DNA from: a virus
Length of the DNA stretch: 47,158 bases
Reading direction: 5' to 3' (one strand)
IMG/VR virus record: IMGVR_UViG_3300028920_000698
Location: 1-47,158 of that record
Shown here: one piece after another, positions 222-46,162 of the stretch
Layout of the letters: each line of letters begins with the position of its first letter
Numbering within the stretch: the stretch's first letter is position 1
Notes under the pieces: model-generated
Database searches by the model: none
The model's input: the letters and a program-made list of their open reading frames with translations, nothing else
Told to the model about the DNA's origin: nothing
Program-made: the position numbers and the translations under genes

Positions 222-678
222 GCAAATTGAGTTTGGGGAAAATTGTCCCTGGGAAGGTGATCCCATTTGGGAGTTGCCAATGAATATATGTCCGATTTTA
301 TGGCACACACTCTATCCATACTTTTTGACTTTGGTTTTTAATGGGGAGACCCCTGAAGAAGGGCGTAAAGTATGTTGTCCAGCTAAAAATGGAATTGATT
401 TGGTTGTCAAGATGCACGGATATACTGAAAAATTTGGTAAGGAAGTTCCTAAAAATTGGCGTGATGTTATATATGCCGAGGTTGTAACAAATCATGGTGA
501 TTGTGATTATGAGGTTGGTCAGATATTTTTATTCCCGACATTTGATAAGAAAAGGATTTGTCCGGCTGGAGTATATAATGTTTTTCCTTTTTTGCGGGTA
601 GATAAGCCTAAGTGTATTGATTTAGATTATTTACGGTGTCCCGATTGGAATGAAACAGTTGCTTATCAAATTGAATAG
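187..678 (+). CDS. Duplicated TIGR04076-like small-protein domain
   Basis: 163 residues. I read two copies of one Cys-containing domain: residues about 10-75 and about 93-163. Each has the pattern of a C near the start (GENCPW; GDCDY), an ICP followed by a conserved helix (ICPILWHTLYPY; ICPAGVYNVFPF) and a late Cys-Pro (CCP; CP). This is the pattern I associate with the TIGR04076 family, whose function is unknown; single-domain members are the norm, so the tandem form is unusual. The start overlaps the Fe-alcohol dehydrogenase stop by 35 bases (ATGATG at 187; either codon could be used), so the two genes are probably translated together. Confidence 0.7.
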   Translation: MMSLDCYRQRIRQIEFGENCPWEGDPIWELPMNICPILWHTLYPYFLTLVFNGETPEEGRKVCCPAKNGIDLVVKMHGYTEKFGKEVPKNWRDVIYAEVVTNHGDCDYEVGQIFLFPTFDKKRICPAGVYNVFPFLRVDKPKCIDLDYLRCPDWNETVAYQIE

Positions 679-687
679 GGGGTGGGA

Positions 688-10082: not shown

Positions 10083-10088
10083 TTAATT

Positions 10089-10110
10089 GGGGGGTTTCGA
10101 CCCCCCTTTT
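10089..10110 (+). terminator. Terminator after the capsid genes
   Basis: Six G (10089-10094), loop TTTCGA, six C (10101-10106), then TTTT. The next ATG is only four bases later (10114), so transcription of the glycan block depends on read-through or an undetected promoter. Confidence 0.85.
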
Positions 10111-10113
10111 ATT

Positions 10114-11112
10114 ATGAGAATAACATTTATAGCCAACCATTTTTGTATTCGCGCTGTTAAGCAAGCGATAGCTTTAAACAGGCGGGGACATAAGATTTAT
10201 GGGATCGGGTTCCGCAGCCCGCAGGTTGACGACAATTTTGCTACATTGTTTAGATGCAAACATATTGGGCAATTTAAAGAGTCAATCAAGGTTATAGATA
10301 AGTTCACAGATGTCTATTATGTCCATACTGAACCCTATTACTATGTATGGATATTGCGGGAGTTAAGTAAAAAGCCGATTGTGTTGGATATGCACGATTC
10401 AATGCAATGGCGTATGCCGCAGAAGTTTGCTTGGAGATCGGCAGAAGAAAGAAGCGCAATCACAATGGTTGACGCTTTAGTAGTGCCGTCGCAGAAATGT
10501 AAAAGACTTACCCCGACAGATAAGCCGATTGAAGTTTTGCCGCCGTATGTCAATGAGCAGTTTATACAGTATAACTGTCTTGAATGGATTGGTGGGTTGG
10601 TATATGAAGGTCGAGCAGATAAGAAGTCAGCTAAAAAGTTCATGCGGTATTGCAAGTACCATGAGTTAGTAGATGATTGCGCGAAAGAAGGAATCCCGTT
10701 TTACATATATTCTCCCTGGAAAGATCAGCAGCAGCTTAATGAGTATAAGAACGCTTTAACCATGCCAGCGGAACCGTATAAGAAGTTATTGGCGAAGCTG
10801 GGCAGCCATGATTGGGGGCTATGTGGAAATACAGTCAAAACTAAAGAATGGAATTTGGCTATGCCAAATAAGTTATTTGAATATATGGCTGCTGGCATAC
10901 CGATTGTGGCTATCAATGCAAGTGAAGTATCGAAGTTTATTAAGAAGTACAAAATAGGCATAACTGTCAAGTCTATTAAAGAGCTGAAAGACAGGTGGGA
11001 TGAAAGGCAGGAGTGCCAGAATAACGTCTTAAAAATCCGTAACCAGTTCACTATGGAGAAACAAATTGGAAAGGTTGAACGACTCCTTAAAGGAGTATTA
11101 CACAAGGCATAA
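10114..11112 (+). CDS. GT-B glycosyltransferase (GT4-like)
   Basis: 332 residues from the ATG at 10114, chosen because the frame upstream runs through the terminator. The N-terminus MRITFIANHFCIRAVKQAIA and the middle PIVLDMHDSM, then ALVVPSQ, are the acceptor-domain strands. The C-terminal WNLAMPNKLFEYMAAGIPIV is the donor-binding signature of GT4 enzymes. It is cytoplasmic and first of eight glycan genes. Almost no ribosome-binding site is visible, since the terminator occupies the space. Confidence 0.85.
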   Translation: MRITFIANHFCIRAVKQAIALNRRGHKIYGIGFRSPQVDDNFATLFRCKHIGQFKESIKVIDKFTDVYYVHTEPYYYVWILRELSKKPIVLDMHDSMQWRMPQKFAWRSAEERSAITMVDALVVPSQKCKRLTPTDKPIEVLPPYVNEQFIQYNCLEWIGGLVYEGRADKKSAKKFMRYCKYHELVDDCAKEGIPFYIYSPWKDQQQLNEYKNALTMPAEPYKKLLAKLGSHDWGLCGNTVKTKEWNLAMPNKLFEYMAAGIPIVAINASEVSKFIKKYKIGITVKSIKELKDRWDERQECQNNVLKIRNQFTMEKQIGKVERLLKGVLHKA

Positions 11113-11617
11113 CCAGGGCGTTAAGTATTCTTTGCGTAAGTTGGCTTTAGTTAATTTAATTCAGAATTTTGTTGATCGCAAGGATCGGGTTATTGATTTA
11201 GGATGCGGTGATGGGTTTATATCGAACTGTGTTGCTGAGTATGTTAAGGCGGTTGTGGGGATAGACCGGGTAGTTAATAAAATGGTCATGCCAAGCCCAA
11301 AGGTTTATTTTACGAAGTGCGATATAGTTAAAGACGAGTTCACAACAAAGGATATAGAGGTCGTCTTATTACTTGATGTATTAGAGCATATTGAAGAAAA
11401 AGACGAAGAAGCGTTTTTAGATAAAGTTGTCAGTCTTTTCACCAAGCGATTGATTGTCAATATCCCGGTTCATCAGGACAAAAAACAGCCGTTTGATCGT
11501 AAAGTTGACATTTGGAAAGTTATGAATCATTTATCTAAGTCTTTGCGGTTGATATATTTTCAGGAAATATATATGTCTGATAATGAGATATATCAATTTA
11601 TGGTATTTGAAAAATGA
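11066..11617 (+). CDS. Class I SAM-dependent methyltransferase
   Basis: 183 residues or slightly fewer. Motif I is VIDLGCGDGF (about residues 42-51), followed by an acidic post-I (VVGIDRV) and EVVLLLDVLEHIE (motif IV). No ATG is near: the frame opens with TTG at 11066 or 11075, both inside the end of the preceding gene. Related enzymes in glycan clusters methylate sugars or lipid-linked intermediates; the substrate cannot be told. The gene end overlaps the next ATG. Confidence 0.78.
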   Translation: MERLNDSLKEYYTRHNQGVKYSLRKLALVNLIQNFVDRKDRVIDLGCGDGFISNCVAEYVKAVVGIDRVVNKMVMPSPKVYFTKCDIVKDEFTTKDIEVVLLLDVLEHIEEKDEEAFLDKVVSLFTKRLIVNIPVHQDKKQPFDRKVDIWKVMNHLSKSLRLIYFQEIYMSDNEIYQFMVFEK

Positions 11618-12255
11618 AAGTAACCATAATTTACCCGTCGATAAGAAACGATCATTATTCAAAATTAGCGTTAGCAAGTATTTACAACCAGTCGCACAGA
11701 GATTTTGAGTTGATAGATGACCGGGAGGGGCCAAACGCTAATATGGCGATCAATAGGTGTTTAGATAAAGCTAGGGGGGATTTGATTACATGGTGTTATG
11801 ACGACGACGTACTGTTTGCGGAGAAAAACGAAATATTTGCCATGTATGCCAATAGGTATCCCAATATTGATATTTTCTATTGTGGTCATGTTGGGATAGA
11901 TCACAAGAATAGGTTTTTATATTTATGGAACGCCCCGTATTTTGAGGAATCATTATTTGAGCATGGGACATTGTTTGGGACATTATCGGTTGCGGTAAGG
12001 AGGAAATCTTTAAATGGAATACGGTTTCGGGAAAGATACCCTATTACTGGTGAGTTTGTTTTCTTTTATGAGTTGTTTAAAGCCGGGTGCAAGTTTTTAT
12101 GTATAAATGTGCCTTTAGTGTATGTTAGGAATTGGAAAGGTCAAAACACAGTTGAAAAACACGAAGCCAAGAAAAAAGAACATGAACAAATCAGAAAAGA
12201 GTTTGGTTCGCATCTCTATTCTAAGTGCAAATACCAGGAAAGCAAGTTTAGTTAA
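11614..12255 (+). CDS. Family 2 glycosyltransferase
   Basis: 213 residues. MKVTIIYPSIRNDHYSKLAL and SIYNQSHRDFELI form the GT2 nucleotide-binding strand and helix, and CYDDDVLF is the DXD site. It resembles the GT2 at 1814. The ATG overlaps the methyltransferase stop (ATGA). Confidence 0.82.
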   Translation: MKVTIIYPSIRNDHYSKLALASIYNQSHRDFELIDDREGPNANMAINRCLDKARGDLITWCYDDDVLFAEKNEIFAMYANRYPNIDIFYCGHVGIDHKNRFLYLWNAPYFEESLFEHGTLFGTLSVAVRRKSLNGIRFRERYPITGEFVFFYELFKAGCKFLCINVPLVYVRNWKGQNTVEKHEAKKKEHEQIRKEFGSHLYSKCKYQESKFS

Positions 12256-12340
12256 TCGGGTGTATTGGGCTTTAAGGGATACCTGGGTTCGTATAAAAGT
12301 TAAACTCCAAAAAGAGGATGACATTTACCCGTTATGGTAA
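12182..12340 (+). CDS. Possible small basic protein, 52 residues
   Basis: A frame starting MNKSEKSLVRIS bridges the 78-base gap between the GT2 and the SGNH genes and overlaps both. It is basic with an aromatic helix (NRVYWALRDTWVRIKVKLQK). It may instead be untranslated spacer. Included because otherwise the gap is unexplained in a tightly packed operon. Confidence 0.3.
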   Translation: MNKSEKSLVRISILSANTRKASLVNRVYWALRDTWVRIKVKLQKEDDIYPLW

Positions 12341-13173
12341 AGGCAACCGCTATTCAAGCGTTTAGGTACGAGCAGCATCCGTACATTATTTATGTAAAAA
12401 GACCGCATATTTACGGTAACGCACCTTACGGGAAGTATGCCACGAATAACTATGGGTTTGTGGGTACACACGAAACGGCGTTGGAGAAGCATGAAGGGGT
12501 AACTAGGGTTATTTGTATTGGCGGTTCAACAACGGAGATGTCTTACAGCTATGATCCCAATAACACTTATCCGGGTTGGGTACAGAAGTATTTAGGGCCG
12601 AAGTATGAAGTTATCAATGCCGGGTGTGCCGGGTGGACAACGGTTGAAATGCTTATCAATTTCGAGTTAAGGCTTTTAGATTTCAAGCCGGACATTATTG
12701 TTTTATATGCGGGGTTTAATGATATACGGCGTTGTGGGTTGGTCAATGGGTTTAAGTCAGATTACTCACACGCAAGGTTTAATAAGGGGTTTGACAGGGC
12801 CACGCATGGCAGGTCGGTATTAAGTTATGTTTCCCCGAAGAATCCTGATTTAGTTGAGATCGCCCCGGAAGAAGCCATCCAGACATTCAGGCGTAATGTT
12901 AAGACTATTATCGGGGTGGCGAAAGAACACGGAATAATTCCGATCATTGTTAAATTTAACTTAAAACCGAGAAACGAATATGAGATTGGTATAAATGACG
13001 GAGTGGTTAAATGTATGGAAGCGATTAAGGATTTAATCACGGTTGAGGTTGAGGATATGGATGAATCTGATTTTGTAGACGGCTGCCATTTAAACACTTC
13101 TGGTATGGAGAAAATGGGATGGGCCGTCGCTAACGGGGTAGTTAATGCGAATCCTTTGCACAAGTCTGTTTAA
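12334..13173 (+). CDS. SGNH/GDSL-family hydrolase
   Basis: 279 residues. Block I is CIGGSTTE (catalytic Ser about 65), block II is NAGCAGWTT, block III is AGFND (Asn129) and block V is DGCHLN (Asp249, His252). The catalytic Ser-Asp-His set is complete. There is no signal peptide, so it is cytoplasmic or virion-borne. In glycan clusters SGNH enzymes add or remove O-acyl groups. It lies between glycosyltransferase genes and overlaps the next gene by 29 bases. Confidence 0.85.
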   Translation: MVKATAIQAFRYEQHPYIIYVKRPHIYGNAPYGKYATNNYGFVGTHETALEKHEGVTRVICIGGSTTEMSYSYDPNNTYPGWVQKYLGPKYEVINAGCAGWTTVEMLINFELRLLDFKPDIIVLYAGFNDIRRCGLVNGFKSDYSHARFNKGFDRATHGRSVLSYVSPKNPDLVEIAPEEAIQTFRRNVKTIIGVAKEHGIIPIIVKFNLKPRNEYEIGINDGVVKCMEAIKDLITVEVEDMDESDFVDGCHLNTSGMEKMGWAVANGVVNANPLHKSV

Positions 13174-14077
13174 GAATAGTTGGATTCCCTACTGGTCGAA
13201 ATTTCTTAAAGACCGGGGACATACGGTTAAATGGTTAATAGGGCATAATGAAAAACATGAGGCAGATTTAGTAAAAGAGGGTAAAAAGTTCGGGGCGATC
13301 CTATGTATGTGGGGATCAAAATGGGCTAAGGCGTTTATTGATGCTGGATATGACAACGTATTCGTCATTTGTCGATCATTTGAGATGTTCAAAGATGCCC
13401 AAGTCTTTGGGGTTGAGAAGGTTAATCTTGGTAAAGCCCATAAGGTTTTTATGCTGAATGAGGCGCATTATGAGTATTTAAAAGAGAATCATCCCAAAGT
13501 CAGGCCAGTATTCATTAAGAACGGAATAGATTTAGACGAGTGGCCTTTAGTTGAGAGGGACAATGACGCAGGTCATAAAGTTGGTTGGATATGTAATCTG
13601 AATTATAAGAAGGGTGCAATCTTGGCACCCAATGTGATAGCGGAACTAAGCAAGATTGATAAATTATTGCAGGTCTATCATATAGGCGCAATCAATTCTC
13701 GTAGGGCGTATTGTTACATACAGAACATCATGCCGTATTTGCATACCAGATTTTTCAATGATGGGTATGAAAACTCGCATGATTTTGTGAAGAAGTTTTT
13801 AAAGGATAAACGGTATATCCTTTCCTGTTCAATGGTTGAAGGGCATCCCATGAATATACTTGAAGCCGCAGCTACTGGGTGTCAGCCGTTGATTCACAGG
13901 TATCCAGGGGCAGAGCATCAATGGCCTGAAAACTGGATTTGGAGTAGTTTTGATGAGTTACGGGAAATGTATCAGAGAGATTATAACTCCCAAGAATACC
14001 GGGATTACATAGTCAAGAATTACGATTATCGGGAAACTTATAAACCCGTAGCGGAAGCAATAGAGGATGTCGAGTGA
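13145..14077 (+). CDS. GT-B glycosyltransferase (GT4-like)
   Basis: 310 residues. MRILCTSLFKNSWIPYWSKF opens the acceptor domain; FIKNGIDLDEWP is the hinge (typical NGID-x-x-x-F/W); CSMVEGHPMNILEAAATGCQ is the donor-binding loop with the conserved EG...N..EA pattern of GT4. It starts within the SGNH gene and ends inside the sulfotransferase-like gene. Confidence 0.87.
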   Translation: MRILCTSLFKNSWIPYWSKFLKDRGHTVKWLIGHNEKHEADLVKEGKKFGAILCMWGSKWAKAFIDAGYDNVFVICRSFEMFKDAQVFGVEKVNLGKAHKVFMLNEAHYEYLKENHPKVRPVFIKNGIDLDEWPLVERDNDAGHKVGWICNLNYKKGAILAPNVIAELSKIDKLLQVYHIGAINSRRAYCYIQNIMPYLHTRFFNDGYENSHDFVKKFLKDKRYILSCSMVEGHPMNILEAAATGCQPLIHRYPGAEHQWPENWIWSSFDELREMYQRDYNSQEYRDYIVKNYDYRETYKPVAEAIEDVE

Positions 14078-14774
14078 TTTTGTAGATACCCCGCGTCAAT
14101 ACATGACCGGCAAAAAGTTAATTGTAATGTGTGGGTTAAGGAGGTCAGGGAACCATTATTTAAGGGATTGGATAGAGTATCAATTCCCTAAACCCACCCA
14201 CAATATGTATAACTACGGGCTTGATTTTTATTTGGGTACATTAAAGGGGTATCAAACAGAGAAAGTTAATTGCCGGGTAGTTTCGATTGAGGAATACCCT
14301 CCGCAGGCGGTTTTAGTGCCTGATAAATACGGGCATGATGAGATTAAGCGGATTGTGTTATTGCGTGATCCTTATAATTTATTTGCTTCGAGAATGAAAT
14401 GGTACACCCATGATGACGATAGGTATTTCAACCCCAAGTTTATAACGTATTTGTGGGTAGATTATGCCAAGTTCGTTTTAAGCAAACCGGAAAATGTGAT
14501 TATTGTTTTATATAACAAGTTTTTCTCTGATGCCGGGTATCGGCGTGAATTGTCAGACAAACTCGACGGCAGATTTGATGATACGCCTATCAATTTTATT
14601 AATAGCAAGTCTGGTGGCAGTTCGTTTGACGGAACGGCGTTTTTAGGATCAGCACAGAACATGAAGGTCTTGGAAAGATGGAAAGTATATAAAAATAATA
14701 AAAATTACCGAAGTTTATTTACGGATGAGATAAAAGATTTATCAAACCAGATATTCGGGTTTAATCCACTATGA
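14067..14774 (+). CDS. P-loop sulfotransferase-like protein
   Basis: 235 residues. GLRRSGNHYL (23-32) matches the 5'-phosphosulfate binding loop and IVLLRDPYNLFASR (96-109) the 3'-phosphate binding segment of PAPS-dependent sulfotransferases. It is soluble, with no membrane anchor. It could sulfate the glycan built by its neighbours. Host supply of PAPS is assumed. Other P-loop kinases are a less likely reading, because the R-D-P-x-N-x-F-A-S-R pattern is characteristic. Confidence 0.8.
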   Translation: MSSDFVDTPRQYMTGKKLIVMCGLRRSGNHYLRDWIEYQFPKPTHNMYNYGLDFYLGTLKGYQTEKVNCRVVSIEEYPPQAVLVPDKYGHDEIKRIVLLRDPYNLFASRMKWYTHDDDRYFNPKFITYLWVDYAKFVLSKPENVIIVLYNKFFSDAGYRRELSDKLDGRFDDTPINFINSKSGGSSFDGTAFLGSAQNMKVLERWKVYKNNKNYRSLFTDEIKDLSNQIFGFNPL

Positions 14775-15739
14775 AAAAAGCGTTAATTGTGCGTTACGGT
14801 GCTATGGGGGATATGATTATTATTTCCCCGGTAATTAAGAAACTTAAAGAACAAGGATACCATGTCATTCTCAATACAAACTCAAGAGGACAAGAAGTAT
14901 ATAAACACGATAGCCGAGTGGATGAGTTTATTAATCACGACGAAGATACTCCCCTTAATGAACTTGAAAAACTTTGGGAAAAACTCACAAAAAAGCATAA
15001 ACCTGATAGATTCATTAATTTCTGCCAGTCGCTTGAGTGTAACGTTGCGGCACACCCCACAGACCCTATATATATCTATCCGAAGCCAGAACGATACCCT
15101 AAATGTAACCGAAACTATTACGACGTTACTAGCGAATGGGCAGGTTTATCTTCGTGTGATAAAAGACCATCACTCATGTTTACCGAAAAAGAACATGAAA
15201 AGGTCAAAAAGTATTTAAAGCCTGACAAGTTTAATATTCTTTGGAACTTATCAGGATCGGGCAAAAACAAGGTTTACCCCTGGACAGATTTCGTGATGGG
15301 CGAGGTTTTGAAGAACCATAAAGACATACATTTCATTACCACTGGGGATGCCAAGTGTCGGTTACTTGAAACTTTACAGGATGAGAATGTTACGAATTTA
15401 TCCGGGGAAACGTCGATTAGGGAAGTCTTTTTATTAACCAAGTATGTTGATTTAGTAATCAGCCCGGATACAGGGGTATTACATGCTTCGGGGTGTTATG
15501 AAACCCCCAAGATCGGGTTATTGGGTCATACGACCATAGAGAATATAACAAAGTATTTTATTAACGATTATTCAATAGAGGCCAACTGTGCTTGTGCGCC
15601 GTGTTTTCGGTTGATTTACGACCATGATATTCAATGCCCGATTGACAACGTAACACACGCTGCTTGGTGTATGAGTGTGGGGTTAGAGCCGGAAAGAGTA
15701 TATGACCGAATCAAAGAAGTTATCAATCGTTCCGTTTAG
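14771..15739 (+). CDS. Family 9 glycosyltransferase (heptosyltransferase-like)
   Basis: 322 residues. ALIVRYGAMGDMIIISPVIK is the GT9 N-terminal signature (R-x-G-x-x-G-D), and LVISPDTGVLHASGCYETPK is the C-terminal donor-binding signature. Known GT9 enzymes add heptose or related sugars to the LPS core, which hints at a diderm host and an LPS-like acceptor. It overlaps its upstream neighbour by 4 bases and the next gene by 38. Confidence 0.9.
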   Translation: MKKALIVRYGAMGDMIIISPVIKKLKEQGYHVILNTNSRGQEVYKHDSRVDEFINHDEDTPLNELEKLWEKLTKKHKPDRFINFCQSLECNVAAHPTDPIYIYPKPERYPKCNRNYYDVTSEWAGLSSCDKRPSLMFTEKEHEKVKKYLKPDKFNILWNLSGSGKNKVYPWTDFVMGEVLKNHKDIHFITTGDAKCRLLETLQDENVTNLSGETSIREVFLLTKYVDLVISPDTGVLHASGCYETPKIGLLGHTTIENITKYFINDYSIEANCACAPCFRLIYDHDIQCPIDNVTHAAWCMSVGLEPERVYDRIKEVINRSV

Positions 15740-16517
15740 ATGCCCGGTTTGCGGGGTTGATACCAATTATGTTTATAAGATAGAGGCTGAAACCGAGGGT
15801 GGCCTTGAACATTCTACTTGGTATCGTTGCACTTGCGGGGTGGTGTTTCAGGATCAGTTGCCAAATGATAACGATATTTATAATAAGGATTATGCCAAGA
15901 TTTACGGAACGGGTGAGAAAAACCAAGCCAGGGGAATCCACGCTGCTAGGATGTACGCCCCGATAATTGAGGAGTTGACTTATGGCAGAATGATGCTTGA
16001 TGTCGGGTTCGGGACTCTGCATAACTTGAAATTCTTTGAAGATCGAGGATGGTTGACTTGGGGGATAGATAAGCATGACGGGGTTAAGCCAGGGAAGAAT
16101 ATATATAAGGGCGATTTTATGGCTTACAACTTCAATCTTCCTTTGCATACTAAGAGTTTAAAAGAATTGATCGGTACGGATAAGATCAAGAAACGCACGT
16201 TTAATTTAATATGGATGGCTCATATTTTAGAGCATTTTCCTGATCCGTTAATGGCCTTGAGAAAGGCATATGATTTACTCTCAGATGACGGAGTTTTATA
16301 TATAGCAACGCCGGATATTGATTTTGTTTATAAAACAGGTGTCGGGGGATGGCCTCATTGGAAAAAGAAAGAACACTATGTTTTATGGAATGAAGCGTCA
16401 TTACGGCGAGAAGTTGAAAGACTTGGATTCAAAGTCGTGATGTCGAGAAGAAACTTCTCGGCACGATTCACAAGCTGGTGGGATATCCACCTGATTTGTC
16501 AAAAAAATTATTTTTAG
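15702..16517 (+). CDS. SAM-dependent methyltransferase with N-terminal zinc knuckle
   Basis: 271 residues. CPVCG (14-18) and YRCTCG (about 41-46) form a four-Cys knuckle, then a class I methyltransferase fold: MMLDVGFGTL (motif I), WGIDKHD (post-I), NLIWMAHILEHFPDP (motif IV) and DDGVLYIATPD (motif V). Such zinc-plus-methyltransferase proteins are common in polysaccharide clusters. Last gene of the glycan block; the next start (16527) begins a virion operon with its own AGGAG site. Confidence 0.85.
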   Translation: MTESKKLSIVPFRCPVCGVDTNYVYKIEAETEGGLEHSTWYRCTCGVVFQDQLPNDNDIYNKDYAKIYGTGEKNQARGIHAARMYAPIIEELTYGRMMLDVGFGTLHNLKFFEDRGWLTWGIDKHDGVKPGKNIYKGDFMAYNFNLPLHTKSLKELIGTDKIKKRTFNLIWMAHILEHFPDPLMALRKAYDLLSDDGVLYIATPDIDFVYKTGVGGWPHWKKKEHYVLWNEASLRREVERLGFKVVMSRRNFSARFTSWWDIHLICQKNYF

Positions 16518-35326: not shown

Positions 35327-35486
35327 TCAGGGCGGAGGAAGTTGGCAAGCAAGATGGAATGGTGATCCTTTAGAAAAATATTTCAATCGAAATGAGGTGG
35401 ATGATGATAGAGAAGAAATCACAGACATTAACGGAGAAGTTGAGGTACATACAGACAAATCTAATAGCCCCCAAGAACCAGTTTAA
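35295..35486 (+). CDS. Hypothetical acidic protein, 63 residues
   Basis: Starts within the end of the coiled-coil gene and overlaps the ERF gene by 86 bases. Contains SQGGGSWQARWNGDPLEKYF and an acidic C-terminus. It is a low-complexity acidic protein with no family. Translation coupling supports expression. Confidence 0.5.
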   Translation: MTYQERQSVVSQGGGSWQARWNGDPLEKYFNRNEVDDDREEITDINGEVEVHTDKSNSPQEPV

Positions 35487-38611: not shown

Positions 38612-39631
38612 ATGAAATACTTTTCAATGTTTTCAGGGATAGGAGGGTTTGAACTTGGGATACAAAGTGCTTATGGTATGGGGGGGACTTCAAGAACATC
38701 AGACACCGAGGACAGACGGGATTTGTCCGTGCCTACCCCAAGCGATGGGAATGGGAGGAGGGCATACCCCGATTGTATTGGTTACTCCGAAATCGACAAG
38801 TACGCCGTGCAAATCTACCAAAAACACTTCGGAAATAATCCTGTACGATCCATACAATCTCAAAATACAGAAGAATCAAAAAATAGCCAATGCTCTACGA
38901 ACAAATTGGAACAACGGAAACACTTGGATAATTATAAAGGACACAAAAACTATGGCAACGCAAGAAACATTATTTGGGAAGAAGTGCCAAACTTCGACCT
39001 TCTCGTTGGGGGATTCCCTTGTCAGGCGTTTTCAATCGCCGGAAAGAGAGGAGGATTTGAAGATACTAGAGGAACTTTATTCTTTGAAATCGCAAGGGCT
39101 TTATCCGTTAAAAGACCTCAACTATGCTTACTGGAAAATGTCAGAGGACTGTTATCACACGATAAAGGGAAAACCTTTGGAACCATCCTTACAACCCTTT
39201 CTGGATTGGGGTATTTTCTCGAGTGGCAGGTACTTAACAGCAAGGATTTCGGAGTCCCCCAAAACCGGGAAAGAGTGTTCATTGTCGGACATCTTAGAGG
39301 AACAAGTAGACCAGAAGTATTTCCTATCGGAGAAACAACAAGTGGCTCTATCCAAGTCAGTAAGCGAGGTAAACACCAACAGGATATAGTTTATAAAGAA
39401 GCTGGGATTATGGCAGCACTACCTTGTGGAACTCACGCTTCTACTCCACATTTAACAAAAACAGAACTTAATGATATGCGTATCAGAAGATTGACCCCAA
39501 CAGAATGTGAAAGACTCCAAGGATTCCCTGATGGATGGACAGAAGGTGTAAGCGATACGCAAAGATATAAATGTTTAGGAAACGCCGTTACGGTCAATGT
39601 CATTCAGGCGATTATGGAGAAATTGTTATGA
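38612..39631 (+). CDS. dcm: C5-cytosine DNA methyltransferase
   Basis: 339 residues with the motifs in order: I MFSGIGGFELG (6-16), II YSEIDKYA (58-65), IV GFPCQAFS (134-141, catalytic Cys137), VI ENV (175-177), VIII QNRERVF (217-223), then LTPTECERLQGFPDGW (IX) and CLGNAVTVNV (X). Two hydrophilic insertions, about residues 23-53 and 74-111, are not usual for the fold and correspond to the overlapping frame described next. It methylates cytosine, probably to protect phage DNA from restriction. Confidence 0.93.
   Translation: MKYFSMFSGIGGFELGIQSAYGMGGTSRTSDTEDRRDLSVPTPSDGNGRRAYPDCIGYSEIDKYAVQIYQKHFGNNPVRSIQSQNTEESKNSQCSTNKLEQRKHLDNYKGHKNYGNARNIIWEEVPNFDLLVGGFPCQAFSIAGKRGGFEDTRGTLFFEIARALSVKRPQLCLLENVRGLLSHDKGKTFGTILTTLSGLGYFLEWQVLNSKDFGVPQNRERVFIVGHLRGTSRPEVFPIGETTSGSIQVSKRGKHQQDIVYKEAGIMAALPCGTHASTPHLTKTELNDMRIRRLTPTECERLQGFPDGWTEGVSDTQRYKCLGNAVTVNVIQAIMEKLL
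38655..39389 (+). CDS. Long same-strand overlapping reading frame within dcm
   Basis: An open frame of about 245 codons in another phase. TTG 38655 has AGGAGGG (38641-38647) seven bases upstream; the ATG at 38952 (MATQETLFGKKCQTSTFSLG) is an alternative. Residues about 10-42 (HQTPRTDGICPCLPQAMGMG then GGHTPIV) and about 66-96 (ILYDPYNLKIQKNQKIANAL onward) resemble sequence I associate with variable regions of phage cytosine methyltransferases. The C-terminal ISESPKTGKECSLSDILEE and KYFLSEKQ resemble a phage protein group found near dcm genes. Translation is not proven; the C-terminal likeness could be a passive effect of dcm conservation. Confidence 0.5.
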   Translation: MGYKVLMVWGGLQEHQTPRTDGICPCLPQAMGMGGGHTPIVLVTPKSTSTPCKSTKNTSEIILYDPYNLKIQKNQKIANALRTNWNNGNTWIIIKDTKTMATQETLFGKKCQTSTFSLGDSLVRRFQSPEREEDLKILEELYSLKSQGLYPLKDLNYAYWKMSEDCYHTIKGKPLEPSLQPFLDWGIFSSGRYLTARISESPKTGKECSLSDILEEQVDQKYFLSEKQQVALSKSVSEVNTNRI

Positions 39632-39644
39632 GCCACTACGAAGA
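39628..39644 (+). repeat. 17-bp direct repeat, copy 2 (downstream of dcm)
   Basis: Identical to 38586-38602. It forms the start codon and first codons of the gene at 39628 and overlaps the end of dcm by four bases. Confidence 0.85.
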
Positions 39645-39813
39645 ACGAAAAAAGCGAGAGCAGGCGATTCTTAATGCCAAGCATAAATGCGTGGATGAGT
39701 TTTGGCACAATTTATTAAATATGGGAATTAGCAAAGCAAATACCATGCGGATATTTTTTAATGAAAGTGATTTTGGTGAAAATTTTGATCGGGCTAGAGA
39801 GTTGGATGATTGA
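39628..39813 (+). CDS. Hypothetical protein, 61 residues
   Basis: MSHYEERKKREQAILNAKHK: basic, helical N-terminus and acidic C-terminus. Its first bases are duplicated upstream of dcm. It may have been the direct neighbour of the HNH gene before dcm arrived. No family recognised. Confidence 0.6.
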   Translation: MSHYEERKKREQAILNAKHKCVDEFWHNLLNMGISKANTMRIFFNESDFGENFDRARELDD

Positions 39814-39816
39814 TTA

Positions 39817-39915
39817 ATGATAATTCCGCCAGAAATAACGACAGAGATGGTGGTTGAGTTTTGGAATTTAGTATTTGAGTTATATTATATGAATCATTCG
39901 TATTTTGTTCTTTGA
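39817..39915 (+). CDS. Possible short peptide, 32 residues
   Basis: A frame from ATG 39817, four bases after the previous stop, ends just before the structured RNA (MIIPPEITTEMVVEFWNLVF at its N-terminus). It has no clear ribosome-binding site. It could be a gene or simply leader sequence. Confidence 0.25.
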   Translation: MIIPPEITTEMVVEFWNLVFELYYMNHSYFVL

Positions 39916-39917
39916 AA

Positions 39918-40020
39918 ACCGAGTGGTGGCGTTCTGGCGCCAGGGGTTAGATGTTACATAACAGCGAACCAGTAAAAGCTGGTAAGGGAAGCAGGGTAGG
40001 GGCAATCCTGCCCACTCGGT
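39918..40020 (+). ncRNA. Candidate structured RNA with 9-bp closing stem
   Basis: ACCGAGTGG (39918-39926) pairs exactly with CCACTCGGT (40012-40020), enclosing 85 bases. Inside are the self-complementary CTGGCGCCAG (39934-39943), ACCAG/CTGGT with a 6-base loop (39968-39983), and GCAGG/CCTGC with an 11-base loop (39991-40011) that lies directly against the closing stem. The layout is multi-branched, but loop sequences are not those of a tRNA (no TTCRA T-loop, 9-bp outer stem). No known RNA family recognised. Strand inferred from gene direction. Confidence 0.5.
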
Positions 40021-40149
40021 CAATATTTAAGGGGCGGTGGCGTGGTAGCCTGATAATTTTCATACTGGCGTTAATGAATCTGGACAAAATATAACAGGAA
40101 CTGTTACAAAATGACAGCTATTGTAAAAAGTTACCGTAACCGCTGTAAG
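39952..40149 (+). promoter_or_regulatory. Inverted-repeat cluster in the 337-bp non-coding region
   Basis: The stretch 39916-40252 carries no credible gene. It has three short perfect inverted repeats: TGTTACATAACA (39952-39963), TAACAGGAACTGTTA (40092-40106) and GTTACCGTAAC (40130-40140). The first two share TGTTA/TAACA half-sites and the third shares TTAC. The third lies between a weak -35 (TTGTAA, 40121-40126) and -10 (TGTAAG, 40144-40149) with 17-base spacing. Operator and/or replication origin is plausible; neither is proven. Confidence 0.45.
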
Positions 40150-40252
40150 TTTTTACCATACGTTTCCGTAAATTATCATTTTTGTATATCAACAGAAATG
40201 GGCAATATGTTAGCCATGACTAAACTAACCCTAATTGCGGAGGGGGTGGGAA

Positions 40253-40450
40253 ATGGATAAGGGATTACAGGACATTTTAAATTTAGTTATGAATTATGTT
40301 GATCGAGCAGATTCTCACAATGTTGATAAGTGTATGATTGAGCAAGAAATACAGGATATTAAGGACATGATTGAAGGGTTGGCAATGAGAGTTGAGAATG
40401 GGGAATTTGAAGTGTCAGCCAACGAAGATAAATGTTATTTGAATGATTGA
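40253..40450 (+). CDS. Hypothetical protein, 65 residues
   Basis: The ATG at 40253 follows GGAGGGGGTGGGA, a variant of the G-rich ribosome-binding element seen five more times downstream; an in-frame TTG at 40235 lacks that context. Helical and acidic (MDKGLQDILNLVMNYVDRAD). First gene after the non-coding region. Confidence 0.6.
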   Translation: MDKGLQDILNLVMNYVDRADSHNVDKCMIEQEIQDIKDMIEGLAMRVENGEFEVSANEDKCYLND

Positions 40451-40462
40451 AAGGGGCGGGGG

Positions 40463-40600
40463 ATGAAAGCTGATCCAAATTGTCCAAGATGCAAAGGTAA
40501 AGGGTGGGTGTTGGTGCAAATATTCGAGTTTGATTTTGAGAAGGATGTTTGTGATTGTGTGGAAGGGGCCGAGGCAAAGGGAATAGATTTAACAAAATAG
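40463..40600 (+). CDS. Small DnaJ-like zinc-knuckle protein, 45 residues
   Basis: CPRCKGKGW (residues 7-15) and CDC (30-32) match the CxxCxGxG and Cys pair of DnaJ-type zinc knuckles. The ATG has GGGGCGGGGG upstream. Below usual ORF cut-offs, but the motif argues for a gene. Function unknown. Confidence 0.55.
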   Translation: MKADPNCPRCKGKGWVLVQIFEFDFEKDVCDCVEGAEAKGIDLTK

Positions 40601-40616
40601 GTGGAAGGGGGGAGGG

Positions 40617-40877
40617 ATGAGTAAAAAAAATTTTAAGAGAAAAGGAGTAGAAGATTTTATTCGTATAAAAGTAGAAAATTGTATGTTGAAAGATGCCAAT
40701 AATGTTTTAATTCATGAATGTCCAAAATGTAGAACACGTTATAATGTTCCTCAAGAAAAACATTTTGGAGTAGAGGCAGTTGTCAACTTCATTATGGAAA
40801 TATATGATGGTTCGGAAGCTGTAAAATTATATATTTTAGGCATAATGGCTAGACAATGGGGGAGAAATGAAAATTAA
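40617..40877 (+). CDS. Hypothetical protein with CPKC motif
   Basis: 86 residues; GGAAGGGGGGAGGG precedes the ATG. HECPKCRTRYNVPQ in the middle suggests a metal-binding pair, but only three Cys are present. The N-terminus is basic. Overlaps the next gene by 11 bases. Confidence 0.55.
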   Translation: MSKKNFKRKGVEDFIRIKVENCMLKDANNVLIHECPKCRTRYNVPQEKHFGVEAVVNFIMEIYDGSEAVKLYILGIMARQWGRNEN

Positions 40878-41310
40878 GGACATGAAGGAAGAAAATTTTA
40901 GGAAAACAAAGGCAATTCGGCCTAAAACAGAAAAAGAATTAATAAATTATATTAAAGAATTTTCCAGTAGGACACACGACTATGGGACTTGTGTTTATGC
41001 CATGTCCTTTGCTGCGACGGCAGCTTTTAATTATGTTGCACACAAACTTGGTGTAACTGGATTTCAGGCCAGGTGTGCTGATATGGATATTTTAAGACAG
41101 ACAAGAAATTTGGAGTGGGGTGCTATTTTAGACTATGAAAACTTATTATATCCGCAATTTAAATACAAGTTTAAGTCTTATGAACAATTATTAATGGAGA
41201 ATCGTGAGGAATTGAGCAAGAGAGCAAAGAAACTTTTAGAAAAATATCCAGACGCATATTCCAACGTGGTTGCTCATTGGAAAAAATTAACTGAGGTGAA
41301 CCATGAGTAA
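40867..41310 (+). CDS. Conserved phage protein of unknown function
   Basis: 147 residues. The central THDYGTCVYAMSFAATAAFN and LGVTGFQARCADMDILRQTR are a pattern I recall from several phage hypothetical proteins in early regions. No catalytic motif. It ends at the first G-rich element. Confidence 0.65.
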   Translation: MKIKDMKEENFRKTKAIRPKTEKELINYIKEFSSRTHDYGTCVYAMSFAATAAFNYVAHKLGVTGFQARCADMDILRQTRNLEWGAILDYENLLYPQFKYKFKSYEQLLMENREELSKRAKKLLEKYPDAYSNVVAHWKKLTEVNHE

Positions 41311-41316
41311 GAAAGA

Positions 41317-41337
41317 GGCGATAGGGGGTGGGGAATG
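41317..41337 (+). repeat. G-rich intercistronic element, copy 1
   Basis: Ends in GCGATAGGGGGTGGGGAATG, whose last bases are the start codon of the MT-A70 gene. It acts as a ribosome-binding site. An 11-codon frame (41303-41338) also ends within it. Other copies: 41919, 42443, 42821, 43341 and 43563. Confidence 0.85.
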
Positions 41338-41949
41338 AAGAAATACCAGATAATTTATGCTGATCCACCGTGGCCATTCGGGAGCATTAGATCAAGCAAG
41401 AAGATAGGTGGAAAGTTTCAGAGATATAAACCTGATACAACGGTTGGCGACGGTAGATATAGTACAATGTCTGGTGAGGAAATAGTTAGGTTGCCGATAA
41501 AAGCCCTTGCTGATAATGACTGTGTATTATTTATGTGGTTTTGCGAAACCAAATTACCTCTTGCATTAAGAGTAATTGAGTCGTGGGGATTTAAATATGT
41601 CAACATTGCTTTTATTTGGAATAAGAAGGAAAAGTCGGGAAAGGATGTCTGTTATTATGGTGGATGGACAATGCGGGGAAGTGAGATGGTAATGCTTGGC
41701 GTGAGGGGGAAGATACATGGTTATATCAAGTCTCATAAAATACGCCAAAAAGTAGAGGCGATAAGGGACAAAAGATTTCATTCGAGGAAACCCCCCATAA
41801 TACGAGATAAGATTGTAGAACTTATGGGTGAATTACCCCGCATAGAACTCTTTGCCCGTGAAAAGACCCCCGGCTGGGATGTCTGGGGTAACGAAGTAGA
41901 AAGTGATATTGATCTCAAGGCGATAGGGGGTGGGGAGAGAAATGGATAA
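41335..41949 (+). CDS. MT-A70-family adenine methyltransferase
   Basis: 204 residues. DPPW (10-13) is the catalytic motif of MT-A70 N6-adenine methyltransferases, with GFKYVNIAFIWNK and GSEMVMLGVRG as typical beta strands and SRKPPIIRDKI near the C-terminus. It ends KAIGGGERNG, encoded by the next copy of the G-rich element. Likely protects phage DNA or marks it. Confidence 0.9.
   Translation: MKKYQIIYADPPWPFGSIRSSKKIGGKFQRYKPDTTVGDGRYSTMSGEEIVRLPIKALADNDCVLFMWFCETKLPLALRVIESWGFKYVNIAFIWNKKEKSGKDVCYYGGWTMRGSEMVMLGVRGKIHGYIKSHKIRQKVEAIRDKRFHSRKPPIIRDKIVELMGELPRIELFAREKTPGWDVWGNEVESDIDLKAIGGGERNG
41919..41936 (+). repeat. G-rich intercistronic element, copy 2
   Basis: GGCGATAGGGGGTGGGGA, followed by GAGAA and the ATG at 41942. 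The repeat is translated as the C-terminal AIGGGE of the MT-A70 protein. Confidence 0.85.
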
Positions 41950-42442
41950 AAATAAGTTTATTTTAGATGCTTGTTGTGGGAAAAGAATGATGTGGTTTAA
42001 CAAGAGTCATAAAAATGTTTTGTTTTTGGATAAAAGGTCATCTGTTTGCCCTGATGTTGTGGGGGATTTTCGTGACTTAGGGTTTTTTGACAAAACTTTT
42101 AAATTGGTGGTTTGGGATGTTCCGCATATTATACAAAAAGAAATTGGCAAAAGTCTTGTTGCCGAAAATTATGGAGTTTTAAGTCCTGATACATGGGAAA
42201 ATGATTTAACACAAGGATTTAATGAATGTTGGCGAGTTCTAGATGATTTTGGTGTATTGATATTTAAGTGGAGTGATTGTAATAAGTGGGCAAATATTAG
42301 TCGGGATGCGACAGTTAAAAAAATTCTTTCATTGTTTAAGGTTGAGCCTTTGTTTGGTCATAAAACTAAGGCAAAATTTGATATAAAAGAAAACAAAAGA
42401 ATAAGTGCAACTTATTGGTTTTGTTTTATGAAATTAGATTAA
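41942..42442 (+). CDS. SAM-dependent methyltransferase-like protein
   Basis: 166 residues. FILDACCGKRMMWFNK (motif I-like, DACCG) and LVVWDVPH (motif IV-like, in place of DPPH) plus FGVLIFKWSDC suggest a class I methyltransferase fold common in phage early regions. The Pro-Pro of the catalytic tetrapeptide is changed to Val-Pro, so activity is uncertain. ATG 41942 is chosen over GTG 41930 because of GGGGAGAG. Confidence 0.65.
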   Translation: MDKNKFILDACCGKRMMWFNKSHKNVLFLDKRSSVCPDVVGDFRDLGFFDKTFKLVVWDVPHIIQKEIGKSLVAENYGVLSPDTWENDLTQGFNECWRVLDDFGVLIFKWSDCNKWANISRDATVKKILSLFKVEPLFGHKTKAKFDIKENKRISATYWFCFMKLD

Positions 42443-42463
42443 GGCGATAGGGAGTGGGGAATG
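42443..42463 (+). repeat. G-rich intercistronic element, copy 3
   Basis: Same element with one change (GCGATAGGGAGTGGGGAATG), ending in the start codon of the next gene. Confidence 0.85.
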
Positions 42464-42841
42464 ATGTATTGCCCTTATTGTAATGGTGATGCTGAATGGG
42501 TAGAAAATAAAGGGGTTTATGGGAAGAATTATGGCAAGTCTGTAATGATTTGGCTATGCCGTAAATGTGATGCTTATGTTGGATGCCACAATAATACCAA
42601 AGAACCTCTTGGAACAATGGCTGATAGAGAAACAAGGGAGTGGCGTAAAAAAGCCCATGCAACATTTGACCCTATTTGGAAAAGCGGAAAGGTGAAAAGA
42701 GATAGAGCGTATGGTTTTCTTAAAAGAAGATTCGGGGCGGATTTTCATATCGGAGAATGTAATGTTGACCAATGTAAGGATATTATAAATTTATGTAAAA
42801 CAGATGAATGGTTTATCAAGTCGATAGGGGGTGGGGAATGA
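42461..42841 (+). CDS. Zinc-finger-containing protein (DUF3268-like)
   Basis: 126 residues. CPYC (residues 4-7) and CRKC (about 33-36) form a zinc ribbon, followed by AYVGCHNNTKEPLGTMAD and a basic helical part, as in the phage zinc-finger-containing family PF11672. It ends SIGGGE, again encoded by the repeated element. Role unknown. Confidence 0.75.
   Translation: MMYCPYCNGDAEWVENKGVYGKNYGKSVMIWLCRKCDAYVGCHNNTKEPLGTMADRETREWRKKAHATFDPIWKSGKVKRDRAYGFLKRRFGADFHIGECNVDQCKDIINLCKTDEWFIKSIGGGE
42821..42840 (+). repeat. G-rich intercistronic element, copy 4
   Basis: TCGATAGGGGGTGGGGAATG, supplying the start codon of the 48-residue gene at 42838. Confidence 0.85.
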
Positions 42842-42984
42842 AGAATATACCTAAAGAAATATGGTTACAGGTTGGAGATTGTGAGAGTTGTAATGATTTT
42901 AATAAATTATCCGAAGTAACTTGGTACACAGATAAAATCAATGATAATGATATTAAATATATTTTGAGTACGGAAAATGAATGA
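42838..42984 (+). CDS. Small phage protein, 48 residues
   Basis: MKNIPKEIWLQVGDCESCND with EVTWYTDKINDNDIKYI at the C-terminus. I recall short phage proteins with this LQVGD and TDKINDxDIKY pattern. It starts from element copy 4 and overlaps both neighbours. Function unknown. Confidence 0.6.
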   Translation: MKNIPKEIWLQVGDCESCNDFNKLSEVTWYTDKINDNDIKYILSTENE

Positions 42985-43348
42985 TAATTATGCGACAGAT
43001 AACAAAATAATGGCACTTTTTGATGGATGGTTTGATCCCTGTCCATTTAATAATGCGGGGAATATCGGTGCTTTATGGGGAACAGATGGTCTTGAAAAAG
43101 ATTGGGAAAATAAAACATTTGTGAATCCTCCATATTCTAACCCCTTGCCTTGGATAAAGAAAGCTATTCAGGAAAGCATAAAAGGTAAAACTGTTGTAAT
43201 GTTGTTGCGGATGGACACATCTACAAAATGGTTTAAAGAATTGCAAGAGGCCGGGGCAGTTTTTTTGTGGGTTAATGGAAGGTTAAGATTTAGAACCGGG
43301 AAACCTGCAAATTTTCCGTCTATGTTGGCTATTCTTGAAAGGCGATAG
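42977..43348 (+). CDS. dam: Phage N6-adenine methyltransferase (Dam-type, PF05869)
   Basis: 123 residues, short for a Dam enzyme. DPCP (20-23), FVNPPYSNPLPW (NPPY 50-53) and VVMLLRMDTSTKWF are the motifs of the phage DNA N-6-adenine methyltransferase family. It is the third DNA methyltransferase in the early region. Confidence 0.88.
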   Translation: MNDNYATDNKIMALFDGWFDPCPFNNAGNIGALWGTDGLEKDWENKTFVNPPYSNPLPWIKKAIQESIKGKTVVMLLRMDTSTKWFKELQEAGAVFLWVNGRLRFRTGKPANFPSMLAILERR

Positions 43349-43361
43349 GGGGTGGGGAGTG
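43341..43361 (+). repeat. G-rich intercistronic element, copy 5
   Basis: GCGATAGGGGGTGGGGAGTG: the final ATG is replaced by GTG, which fixes the next gene's start at 43359. Confidence 0.85.
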
Positions 43362-43553
43362 AAGGATAACGGAAAATTACGAAGATACAATCAATGGGCT
43401 GGCAATCCCAATGGCGAGTTAGAAGATGTCAAAAAATGCGTTCAAGAAGTAAGCGATTCTTCTGGATGGCATTTTTATCAATGTAGCAGAAAGCGTGGTT
43501 TTGGAAAAAACGGTTTATATTGTAAACAACACGCAAAAAGAAATCCGGCGTGA
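43359..43553 (+). CDS. Small Cys/His-containing phage protein
   Basis: 64 residues from GTG 43359. RRYNQWAGNPNGELEDVKKC and YQCSRKRGFGKNGLYCKQHA: the C...C...C-x-x-H set is a putative zinc site. I recall phage hypothetical proteins with the N-Q-W-A-G-N-P and Y-C-K-Q-H-A pattern. Function unknown. Confidence 0.65.
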   Translation: MKDNGKLRRYNQWAGNPNGELEDVKKCVQEVSDSSGWHFYQCSRKRGFGKNGLYCKQHAKRNPA

Positions 43554-43562
43554 AAGATAAGA

Positions 43563-43583
43563 GGCGATAGGGGGTGGGGAATG
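43563..43583 (+). repeat. G-rich intercistronic element, copy 6
   Basis: GCGATAGGGGGTGGGGAATG again, ending in the start codon of the CSFGE-repeat gene. Confidence 0.85.
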
Positions 43584-43952
43584 AGAAAATACACTTTAGT
43601 CGAAGTTGAAAAATTTGAACGAAACAAAAACGGTATTTTGTATTTGCCGACAGGTGATTATACGTTAATAAGCAGGTTTGGCAAGTGGTGCAGTTTCGGC
43701 GAGGGGTGCAGTTTTGGCGAGTGGTGCAGTTTCGGCGAGGGGTGCAAATATTGCGATTTTGTTTTTAAAGTTTTGATTAATTTGAGTGGGTTGTATAAAT
43801 ATCAGATACGCATATATTGCAACGAAGATAAATATATTTTGTCAATCGGTTGCCACAATTTTAAAACAGTTACAGAAGCGGTCGAATATGGGAAGAAAAA
43901 TAATTGTTATTGCAAAAAAACGCATGAGGTTGTGAAGAAAATATTAAGTTAA
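43581..43952 (+). CDS. Protein with CSFGE hexapeptide repeats
   Basis: 123 residues. Residues about 36-55 are WCSFGEGCSFGEWCSFGEGC: three and a half copies of a six-residue unit. The flanking sequences are beta-rich, and the C-terminus ends with a Cys-Lys-rich helix. The repeat resembles left-handed beta-helix or pentapeptide-type solenoids in which each Cys stacks; metal binding is also possible. Confidence 0.6.
   Translation: MRKYTLVEVEKFERNKNGILYLPTGDYTLISRFGKWCSFGEGCSFGEWCSFGEGCKYCDFVFKVLINLSGLYKYQIRIYCNEDKYILSIGCHNFKTVTEAVEYGKKNNCYCKKTHEVVKKILS
43686..43746 (+). repeat. 18-base tandem repeat (CSFGE units)
   Basis: Units 43686-43703, 43704-43721, 43722-43739 and a partial one. First and third are identical (TGGTGCAGTTTCGGCGAG). 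Repeat number could change by slippage. Confidence 0.9.
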
Positions 43953-44006
43953 TTTTAGGAGAGTGGATTGCTTTGTTATTTCATTTGGGGGTGAAATTAT
44001 TTTAAT

Positions 44007-45113
44007 ATGAGTTATTCTGAATATTTCAAAACATACGATTTACCTAGAACGACCACGCAGGTTGATAGTTTATATCATTGGCAGCATGGTGAGACTTTCC
44101 CACCGGTCATAGTCGAGCTCAACCCGATCCATGCCTGTAACCAGAAATGTCGGTATTGTTATACACAGAAAAAGGGGCATCCTAAAGAAAGGTTATCGAG
44201 TGAGTTGTTGAGGCGGTTGCCGGAAGAACTGGAAACCTATGGGGTTCAGTCTGTTCTTATTCAAGGGACTGGTGAGCCGTTGATGAATAAGGATTTAAAA
44301 ATATTCCTTGTTAATACAAAACTTAAAATCGGATTAACGACTAACGGGGTATTGTTTAATCAGGTATGGCAAGATGATGTTTTGGATAAGCTGCATTATG
44401 TTAGGTTTAGCGTGTTGGATCGGAATCCAGAAAGATATGCCAAACTTCATGGGACAACTGTTTCTGATTGGGAAAAACTTATTAACAATATCGCATATAT
44501 GAATAAATTAAGGCATGAAAAAGAGATTCCCGTTGCTATGTGGGGAACGATTTATGTCCATGAAGATAATTATAGGCATATTGGAGATATTATTTCTTTT
44601 TTCCGGGGGTTGGGTATGGATTATTTAGTTATTCAGGAATCACGATATGGTAATTATTCGCTTGATCCCAGTGATTATAGATATTTTTCAGAAACCATTT
44701 CTCGGGAAGCAATTAAAGATATTCAGCGGGAGATTCTTTTACAGGATTCTAATGAGTGTCGGGTAAAATGCAGGTTTCCGATTAATGATGAAACCTTTTT
44801 TGTCGGTATGGATAAAACCACTTGGAAAAAAGATTTTTGTCAGGGGATATATTTTTACGGGATTATTTCATCTGATGCCAATATTTATCCCTGTTGGCGG
44901 TTTTGGGGAAACGATAAGGATTACAGTTATGGTGATCTTACTAAGCAGACATTCAGGGAAATTTGGGAAGGTATGCGTAGGCAAGAGATAATAAAGAGGG
45001 TTTTGACTACTTCACCTCAGGGGGAAGAATGTGCCATATGTAATGCTACGAAACTGAATACTATTTTAGCGCAATATAATCAACCTAATTCATGGCGGGG
45101 GTTTTTAATATGA
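44007..45113 (+). CDS. Radical SAM enzyme with C-terminal Cys cluster (SPASM-like)
   Basis: 368 residues. ACNQKCRYCY gives the CxxxCxxC motif (Cys44, 48, 51) that holds the catalytic [4Fe-4S] cluster; QGTGEPL is the GGE-type SAM motif. Further Cys at CRVKC, DFCQG, IYPCWRFW and ECAICN suggest an auxiliary cluster of the SPASM/twitch type. The reaction is unknown. It starts the accessory operon; its stop overlaps the FkbM gene start. The 54 bases before it hold only spacer. Confidence 0.85.
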   Translation: MSYSEYFKTYDLPRTTTQVDSLYHWQHGETFPPVIVELNPIHACNQKCRYCYTQKKGHPKERLSSELLRRLPEELETYGVQSVLIQGTGEPLMNKDLKIFLVNTKLKIGLTTNGVLFNQVWQDDVLDKLHYVRFSVLDRNPERYAKLHGTTVSDWEKLINNIAYMNKLRHEKEIPVAMWGTIYVHEDNYRHIGDIISFFRGLGMDYLVIQESRYGNYSLDPSDYRYFSETISREAIKDIQREILLQDSNECRVKCRFPINDETFFVGMDKTTWKKDFCQGIYFYGIISSDANIYPCWRFWGNDKDYSYGDLTKQTFREIWEGMRRQEIIKRVLTTSPQGEECAICNATKLNTILAQYNQPNSWRGFLI

Positions 45114-46162
45114 AACAATATAGTGCCGATTTCTTTAGTGGTAAAACTGTGTTTGTTTATGGGGCTGGGGATGGTTGCGAAACATTGTTTTCGTTTGTCC
45201 TAGATAGGTTTGGAATAACGCCGTCTGCTATTCTTGATGCTGATTCAAAGAAGATCGGGGAAAAGCACGGGGTCAATATATATTCACCGTATAATTTTCG
45301 GTTGACCGCTAAAGAGATGGAAAACGGCGTTATTATAATTTCTCTTGGAGATAAGAAGCAGTATCCAAATATTATTAATTTACTGGAACGCATGGGGTTC
45401 AAGTATATCTTATCCGCTATGGATATATACGAATATCACCTGCCATACACTCATTCCGGTAAAATAGATTTTAAGAATAATAAAAAAGATATTGAAGATG
45501 CCCGGAAATTATTTAAAGACAAACTCAGTCTTACTATTTATGACAAAATTATTGAAATGTATCAAACGGAAAGGATCACTAAAATCCCGCGACAAAAGAA
45601 CGAAAAACAATATTATCCAAGAGATATTTGGATTAACTTGCGGCGTTCTATATTTTGCGGTGCATATACTGGCGATACTTTGCCACCTATGGGATTGAGG
45701 TTATCCGTATCCACAATGGTTTGTTTTGAGCCTAACCGAGAAAGTTTTTTAAAATTACGGGAAACAGTTGGAAACAATTATGCGTTTGCCGATACAGTTA
45801 TATTATTACCAACGGGGGTATATAGTTCTACTGTGCGATTACCGTTTGTTGAACGCAAGATGAACTCATCTATCACAGGCAATTCGGATAACCATATTCA
45901 ATGTTGCGCGATTGATGATATCTTGCCGAACTTTTTTCCAACATATATTACTATGGACATTGAGGGGTCTGAACTTGAAGCATTGAAAGGTGCTGCTCGC
46001 ACTATTCAAAAAAATCATCCCCACATGGCTATTTCAGTTTACCACACCCCTGAGCACATATGGGAGATACCATTATATATTAATTATTTATATAATGGTT
46101 ATCAATTAACTCTTAGAAACTATACTGGCTATTTAGCCGAAACCATCCTATACGCCCTATGA
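45110..46162 (+). CDS. FkbM-type methyltransferase with N-terminal Rossmann-like domain
   Basis: 350 residues from the ATG at 45110, which overlaps the radical SAM stop; the frame is open from 45092. TVFVYGAGDGCETLFSFV at the N-terminus is a nucleotide-binding-like domain frequent in FkbM proteins; FCGAYTGDT is motif I, VCFEPNRESFLKL post-I, TYITMDIEGSELEALKG and MAISVYHTPEHIWEIPLYIN the FkbM signature. It O-methylates small metabolites or sugars. Overlaps the Fe-alcohol dehydrogenase by 4 bases. Confidence 0.88.
   Translation: MKQYSADFFSGKTVFVYGAGDGCETLFSFVLDRFGITPSAILDADSKKIGEKHGVNIYSPYNFRLTAKEMENGVIIISLGDKKQYPNIINLLERMGFKYILSAMDIYEYHLPYTHSGKIDFKNNKKDIEDARKLFKDKLSLTIYDKIIEMYQTERITKIPRQKNEKQYYPRDIWINLRRSIFCGAYTGDTLPPMGLRLSVSTMVCFEPNRESFLKLRETVGNNYAFADTVILLPTGVYSSTVRLPFVERKMNSSITGNSDNHIQCCAIDDILPNFFPTYITMDIEGSELEALKGAARTIQKNHPHMAISVYHTPEHIWEIPLYINYLYNGYQLTLRNYTGYLAETILYAL

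Follow-up and report, generated by a model that had tools for sequence, protein, structure and literature searches.

A probable start-associated sequence with a strong predicted ribosome-binding site precedes successive accessory genes of a phage

Introduction

In T4-type phages, short PeSL cassettes carrying an early promoter and a stem-loop are repeated in the joints between accessory genes, and have been proposed to aid shuffling by recombination. Cluster K mycobacteriophages carry a start-associated sequence (SAS), GGGATAGGAGCCC, at the ribosome-binding site of 11–19 non-structural genes per genome, with conservation that extends beyond the bases pairing with 16S rRNA (PMC3203893; a further source is PMC12699233). 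A different SAS, GGGAAAGGACCCC, is present in ten copies in Microbacterium Cluster EF phages (PMC7302621). The function of SAS is unverified (PMC12699233, PMC11373665) and, in this literature, they are described only in phages of actinobacteria.

Here, we describe a repeated element, AGGCGATAGGGGGTGGGGA, in the viral record IMGVR_UViG_3300028920_000698. The window, that is, the whole stretch of DNA analysed, spans positions 1 to 47,158 of this record. The best match in kind for the element is the SAS of Cluster K and Cluster EF phages; we conclude that it is not a Cluster K SAS, rather a new consensus of the SAS kind that is packed into overlapping gene joints.

Results

An array of accessory genes near the right end of the record

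The record carries a terminase, an SU10-type portal and a capsid family common to many viral contigs, with these genes located at 3.4–9.7 kb and the element copies at 41.3–43.6 kb. The latter lie within an array of seven genes near the right end, all on the same strand, with neighbours sharing up to 8 nt or lying at most about 30 nt apart:

41335..41949, + strand: MT-A70 adenine methyltransferase (Pfam PF05063, E=2.7e-27)
41942..42442, + strand: DNA methyltransferase (phrog_954; the E=1.3e-45 was obtained with a slightly longer ORF, 41930-42442)
42461..42841, + strand: DUF3268 zinc-finger protein (PF11672, E=2.8e-35)
42838..42984, + strand: small ORF of 48 aa (MKNIPKEIW..., from the sequence)
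42977..43348, + strand: Dam-type N6-adenine methyltransferase (PF05869, E=4.4e-20)
43359..43553, + strand: small ORF of 64 aa (VKDNGKLRRYNQW...; no family match)
43581..43952, + strand: 123-residue protein with short GCSFGE-type repeats (no family match)

Adjoining the array, at 44007–46162, are a Radical SAM/SPASM protein and then an FkbM-type methyltransferase. Unusual cargo was also observed within the structural region, where a sugar-related gene block 3' of the capsid gene (10087–16517) includes a heptosyltransferase-like GT9 protein (14771–15739) and other genes resembling glycosyl- and methyltransferases. Upstream of the array, the non-coding stretch 39905–40035 is predicted to fold into a multi-branch RNA closed by an outer stem, ACCGAGTG...CACTCGGT (-48.1 kcal/mol, z -3.6); Rfam returned no match in 39500–44300, and no similar phage DNA was found for this RNA.

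Six near-identical copies abut or closely precede gene starts

The element is a 19-nt block present in six near-identical copies, on the + strand only, in the region 41316–43580, with two weaker relatives elsewhere:

41316..41334, + strand: copy 1 (AGGCGATAGGGGGTGGGGA), directly 5' of the MT-A70 start
41918..41936, + strand: copy 2; the ATG of the next gene (41942) follows after 5 nt
42442..42460, + strand: copy 3, variant GGGAG, overlapping the last base of the upstream TAA stop
42819..42837, + strand: copy 4 (AGTCGATAGGGGGTGGGGA)
43340..43358, + strand: copy 5, directly 5' of a GTG start
43562..43580, + strand: copy 6
40236..40252, + strand: weaker relative TGCGGAGGGGGTGGGAA, preceding ATG 40253 (predicted 16S-tail pairing -15.7)
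674..687, + strand: weaker relative AATAGGGGGTGGGA, preceding ATG 688

An earlier note, made from the sequence alone, had claimed six copies, and all are present, with 20-mer matches (≤3 mismatches) starting at 41318, 41920, 42444, 42821, 43342 and 43564 and none in 100 dinucleotide shuffles; the sites are therefore real, but had been placed one base low. Its two weaker relatives are likewise real, at 678 (before ATG 688) and 40242 (before ATG 40253), each with part of the block missing. The remainder of the 47,158-base record contained no further copy except the two-mismatch relative at 674, in which TAG at 676–678 is the stop of ORF 187–678 and after which ATG 688 opens a 30-aa membrane-like ORF.

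As had been described, the element ends at or just before the next start: the distance to the start codon is 0–5 nt throughout, with direct abutment in five of the six copies (ATG in four, GTG at 43359 in one) and an ATG after 5 nt in the copy at 41920. The invariant block extends from AG at -2/-1 through the A preceding the start codon, and within the 17-nt core the copies are pairwise 96% identical, versus 26% upstream and 36% downstream. All six joints carrying AGGCGATAGGGGGTGGGGA lie between unrelated genes, with the element exactly at gene ends and starts, an anatomy that fits the module boundary suggested earlier. The Dam gene at 42977 is an array member without a copy.

A near-maximal predicted ribosome-binding site with conserved flanks

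Judged from sequence, the ready ribosome-binding site proposed for the element holds up, since its core, AGGGGGTG, constitutes an extended Shine-Dalgarno. This is predicted to pair with the 16S tail over eight contiguous positions, one of them G-U, and it is well spaced, the GGGGG run lying 6 nt from the start codon. Assuming a canonical tail, from which that of the host may differ, predicted pairing reached -14.1 kcal/mol in five of the six copies and was weaker in the variant copy 3 at 42444 (-8.5 kcal/mol), whilst none of 35 other starts of this phage reached -14.1 (median -7.5, best -12.7). In predicted local folds, the Shine-Dalgarno was 26–45% unpaired.

Neither GCGAT, which precedes the core, nor GGGA, which follows it, pairs regularly with 16S rRNA, yet both are as constant as the core itself, indicating that the element goes beyond a good ribosome-binding site. 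Outside the core, the six genes show little or no variation in 11 columns (log10 P about -28 for independent origin), a uniformity that points to shared descent, selection on all bases, or both.

Upstream genes terminate within the element

Three of the six upstream genes (MT-A70, DUF3268 and Dam) end in or through the element. The last residues of MT-A70, KAIGGGERNG, are translated from copy 2 and the DUF3268 tail, SIGGGE, from copy 4, so that the AIGGGE and SIGGGE protein ends noted earlier had been read correctly, and copy 5 supplies the TAG stop of the Dam gene (ends 43348). Among 80 MT-A70 homologues, 56 end within 8 residues of the conserved WGNE motif and 20 stop at the exact codon where the element begins; the phage protein has 17 residues after this motif because it continues through the element. 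For DUF3268, the match to a homologue (68%, L101) ends at residue 120. The element offers TAG (CGA-TAG) in one frame and TGA (GAA-TGA, with the following ATGA) in a second, whilst the third enters the downstream start. With stops in two of three frames, terminating ribosomes would be delivered to the next start, and left there they make translational coupling of the array genes likely, as far as their arrangement can indicate.

Comparison with described systems

The element and the Cluster K SAS are both short, asymmetric, multi-copy blocks that keep a single orientation and lie where non-structural genes have their ribosome-binding site; both contain a Shine-Dalgarno but are conserved beyond it, the upstream stop may fall within them, and GATAGG is common to the two. 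Many same-orientation copies near starts, a ribosome-binding-site position with excess conservation, and confinement to the non-structural region are all found here. The consensus is nevertheless a different one, agreeing with GGGATAGGAGCCC at 8 of 13 positions where a Cluster K SAS would show at most two mismatches, and the block is longer. Whereas Cluster K SAS mostly lie in gaps of >50 bp, the present array has no large intergenic gaps, its genes adjoining or overlapping one another, with upstream proteins read into the element. In about half of cases the Cluster K SAS is extended by 17-bp inverted repeats just upstream, which the element lacks: no closely spaced inverted repeat of at least 16 nt was detected near any copy, in a search that a strongly imperfect repeat could escape. 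The Cluster EF SAS resembles the element in its ribosome-binding-site position and in conservation past the pairing core, representing a second independent consensus, but its sequence and its host group are different, and it is linked to an extended motif lying upstream. Like the PeSL cassettes of T4-type phages, the element repeats in joints between accessory genes; unlike in them, neither a promoter nor a shared stem-loop was seen in it. Promoter-like sites numbered 20 in the region versus 15.5 (sd 3.2) in shuffles, with none in the element, and no hairpin was common to its copies. An integron attC or mobile cassette site was also considered and rejected, as the 19-nt block is not palindromic.

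Relatives lack the element

A single exact match to the element was obtained from IMG/VR; it lay in a G+C-rich phage that is unrelated, and was attributed to chance. An 18-mer of the element had no match in IMG/VR, nor a 21-mer in GTDB genomes, in which the capsid protein also had no relative. None of 44 capsid or terminase relatives carried the element, and searches of 24 and 44 related records gave no matches, or three-mismatch matches at about the rate of a reversed-pattern control. Homologues of the downstream genes at 60–68% identity had ordinary, unrelated starts without the element, and the repeat protein at 43581..43952 likewise has homologues in other phages without it. Accessory regions of those capsid and terminase relatives that were examined shared almost no genes with the array. 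The array's gene order was found in no relative, its accessory genes occurring singly in unrelated phages, and no copy lay away from a start. With no match in related viruses, the array appears private to this phage lineage, as far as the sequence collections searched show.

A second, unrelated array

A repeat survey of 182 sequences, each 7 kb or longer, had as its positive control the published SAS of phage Anaya, which it recovered at 14 starts. Beyond Anaya and the AGGCGATAGGGGGTGGGGA record, only one array at more than four starts was found, comprising ten copies or near variants of TTCTTAAAGCCATTA in IMGVR_UViG_3300031952_000027 (L093, 3211-7431; L224 is the reverse strand). These copies are mostly preceded by CCCC(T/C)TAA and, in nine of ten, the start codon lies at +14 or +39, defining two leader types. 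Like the element, TTCTTAAAGCCATTA lies before a succession of methyltransferase genes, an MT-A70 among them, and small accessory genes, and was seen in one phage only; unlike it, TTCTTAAAGCCATTA is A/T-rich and without a Shine-Dalgarno, and the two sequences are unrelated. We conclude that it is an independent start-associated array lacking a Shine-Dalgarno. Looser repeats in four further loci (L022, L026, L046 and L194) were set aside, since they resemble ordinary Shine-Dalgarno contexts present in a few copies. A G+C-rich viral contig (L008, 1150-2400) contained many repeats of the types GAGCGAGCCA and GAGAGCACCA.

Discussion

We consider it probable that the element is a phage start-associated sequence with a near-maximal extended Shine-Dalgarno, providing one strong start for each accessory gene. 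Less in keeping with this are the limited accessibility of the Shine-Dalgarno in predicted local folds, the spacing at copy 2, longer by 5 nt, the weaker pairing of copy 3, and the Dam gene, an array member that lacks a copy. The conservation of GCGAT and GGGA without 16S pairing would also suit a translational or transcriptional operator, through which a protein or RNA of phage or host switches the accessory genes together; the authors of the Cluster K study argued likewise, leaving open whether a protein or RNA is bound (PMC3203893), and a single block preceding many genes would suit a regulon. This reading is rather unlikely, given that no candidate regulator was identified, that the block lacks dyad symmetry and that recent copying alone could account for its identity. 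Such copying is itself an explanation, in which the copies are recent duplicates produced by recombination or template switching at joints, their likeness reflecting youth rather than selection, around an ordinary ribosome-binding site. Near-identity across the whole block, non-pairing bases included, and the capsid relatives without a copy are in keeping with it, but all copies lie close before starts and none elsewhere, and published SAS demonstrate long-term conservation of such blocks (PMC3203893), making recent duplication by itself an improbable account.

Independent selection of a strong Shine-Dalgarno at each gene might be suggested by AGGGGGT at starts 9666 and 31816 and GGGGGTG at 44007; these starts, however, have different, A/T-rich flanks, and the (near-)uniform columns outside the core contradict an independent origin so strongly that we give it very little credence. 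The earlier note had further raised a four-stranded structure of the G-runs, which might control expression or recombination. Each copy does hold two G-runs (of 5 and 4), but such a structure needs four runs in one strand, quadruplex-enabled folding predicted none at any copy, and the runs have to be available for 16S rRNA pairing at the adjacent start, leaving this suggestion highly implausible.

Under the favoured reading of a start-associated sequence, the element would equip every accessory gene with one common, strong start of translation within a same-strand, abutting array, and would at the same time terminate the upstream gene and pass terminating ribosomes to the next start, such that the array genes may be co-transcribed and translationally coupled. 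The conserved flanks GCGAT and GGGA may have a function of their own. ERF annealing proteins and YqaJ nucleases are kinds of enzyme known for joining short homologies, and this phage encodes both (genes at 35392 and 35981), making it plausible that copies spread by recombination; its own annealase and nuclease would be candidates for spreading them through short-homology recombination or gene conversion. No close relative that could show such spread was found. It is likewise plausible that genes were added by way of the element, as the earlier note had proposed, and genes joined to it would arrive ready for translation; the rearranged gene orders with breakpoints in the element that this could leave were sought among relatives, none of which carried the element or a rearranged order. 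A broader proposal, that phages of many unrelated groups each use a start-associated sequence of their own as a docking module, by which genes are stitched in through short homology, the old gene is ended, a ribosome-binding site is supplied and the array comes under common, possibly regulated, translation, is one that we put forward only as a doubtful extension.

Together, the element and the unrelated TTCTTAAAGCCATTA array suggest that the SAS phenomenon is wider, with a consensus private to each phage lineage. The overlap of the element with upstream protein ends offers a direct way into the question of whether such blocks dock new genes, and the element may show how phages plug in genes that are ready for translation.
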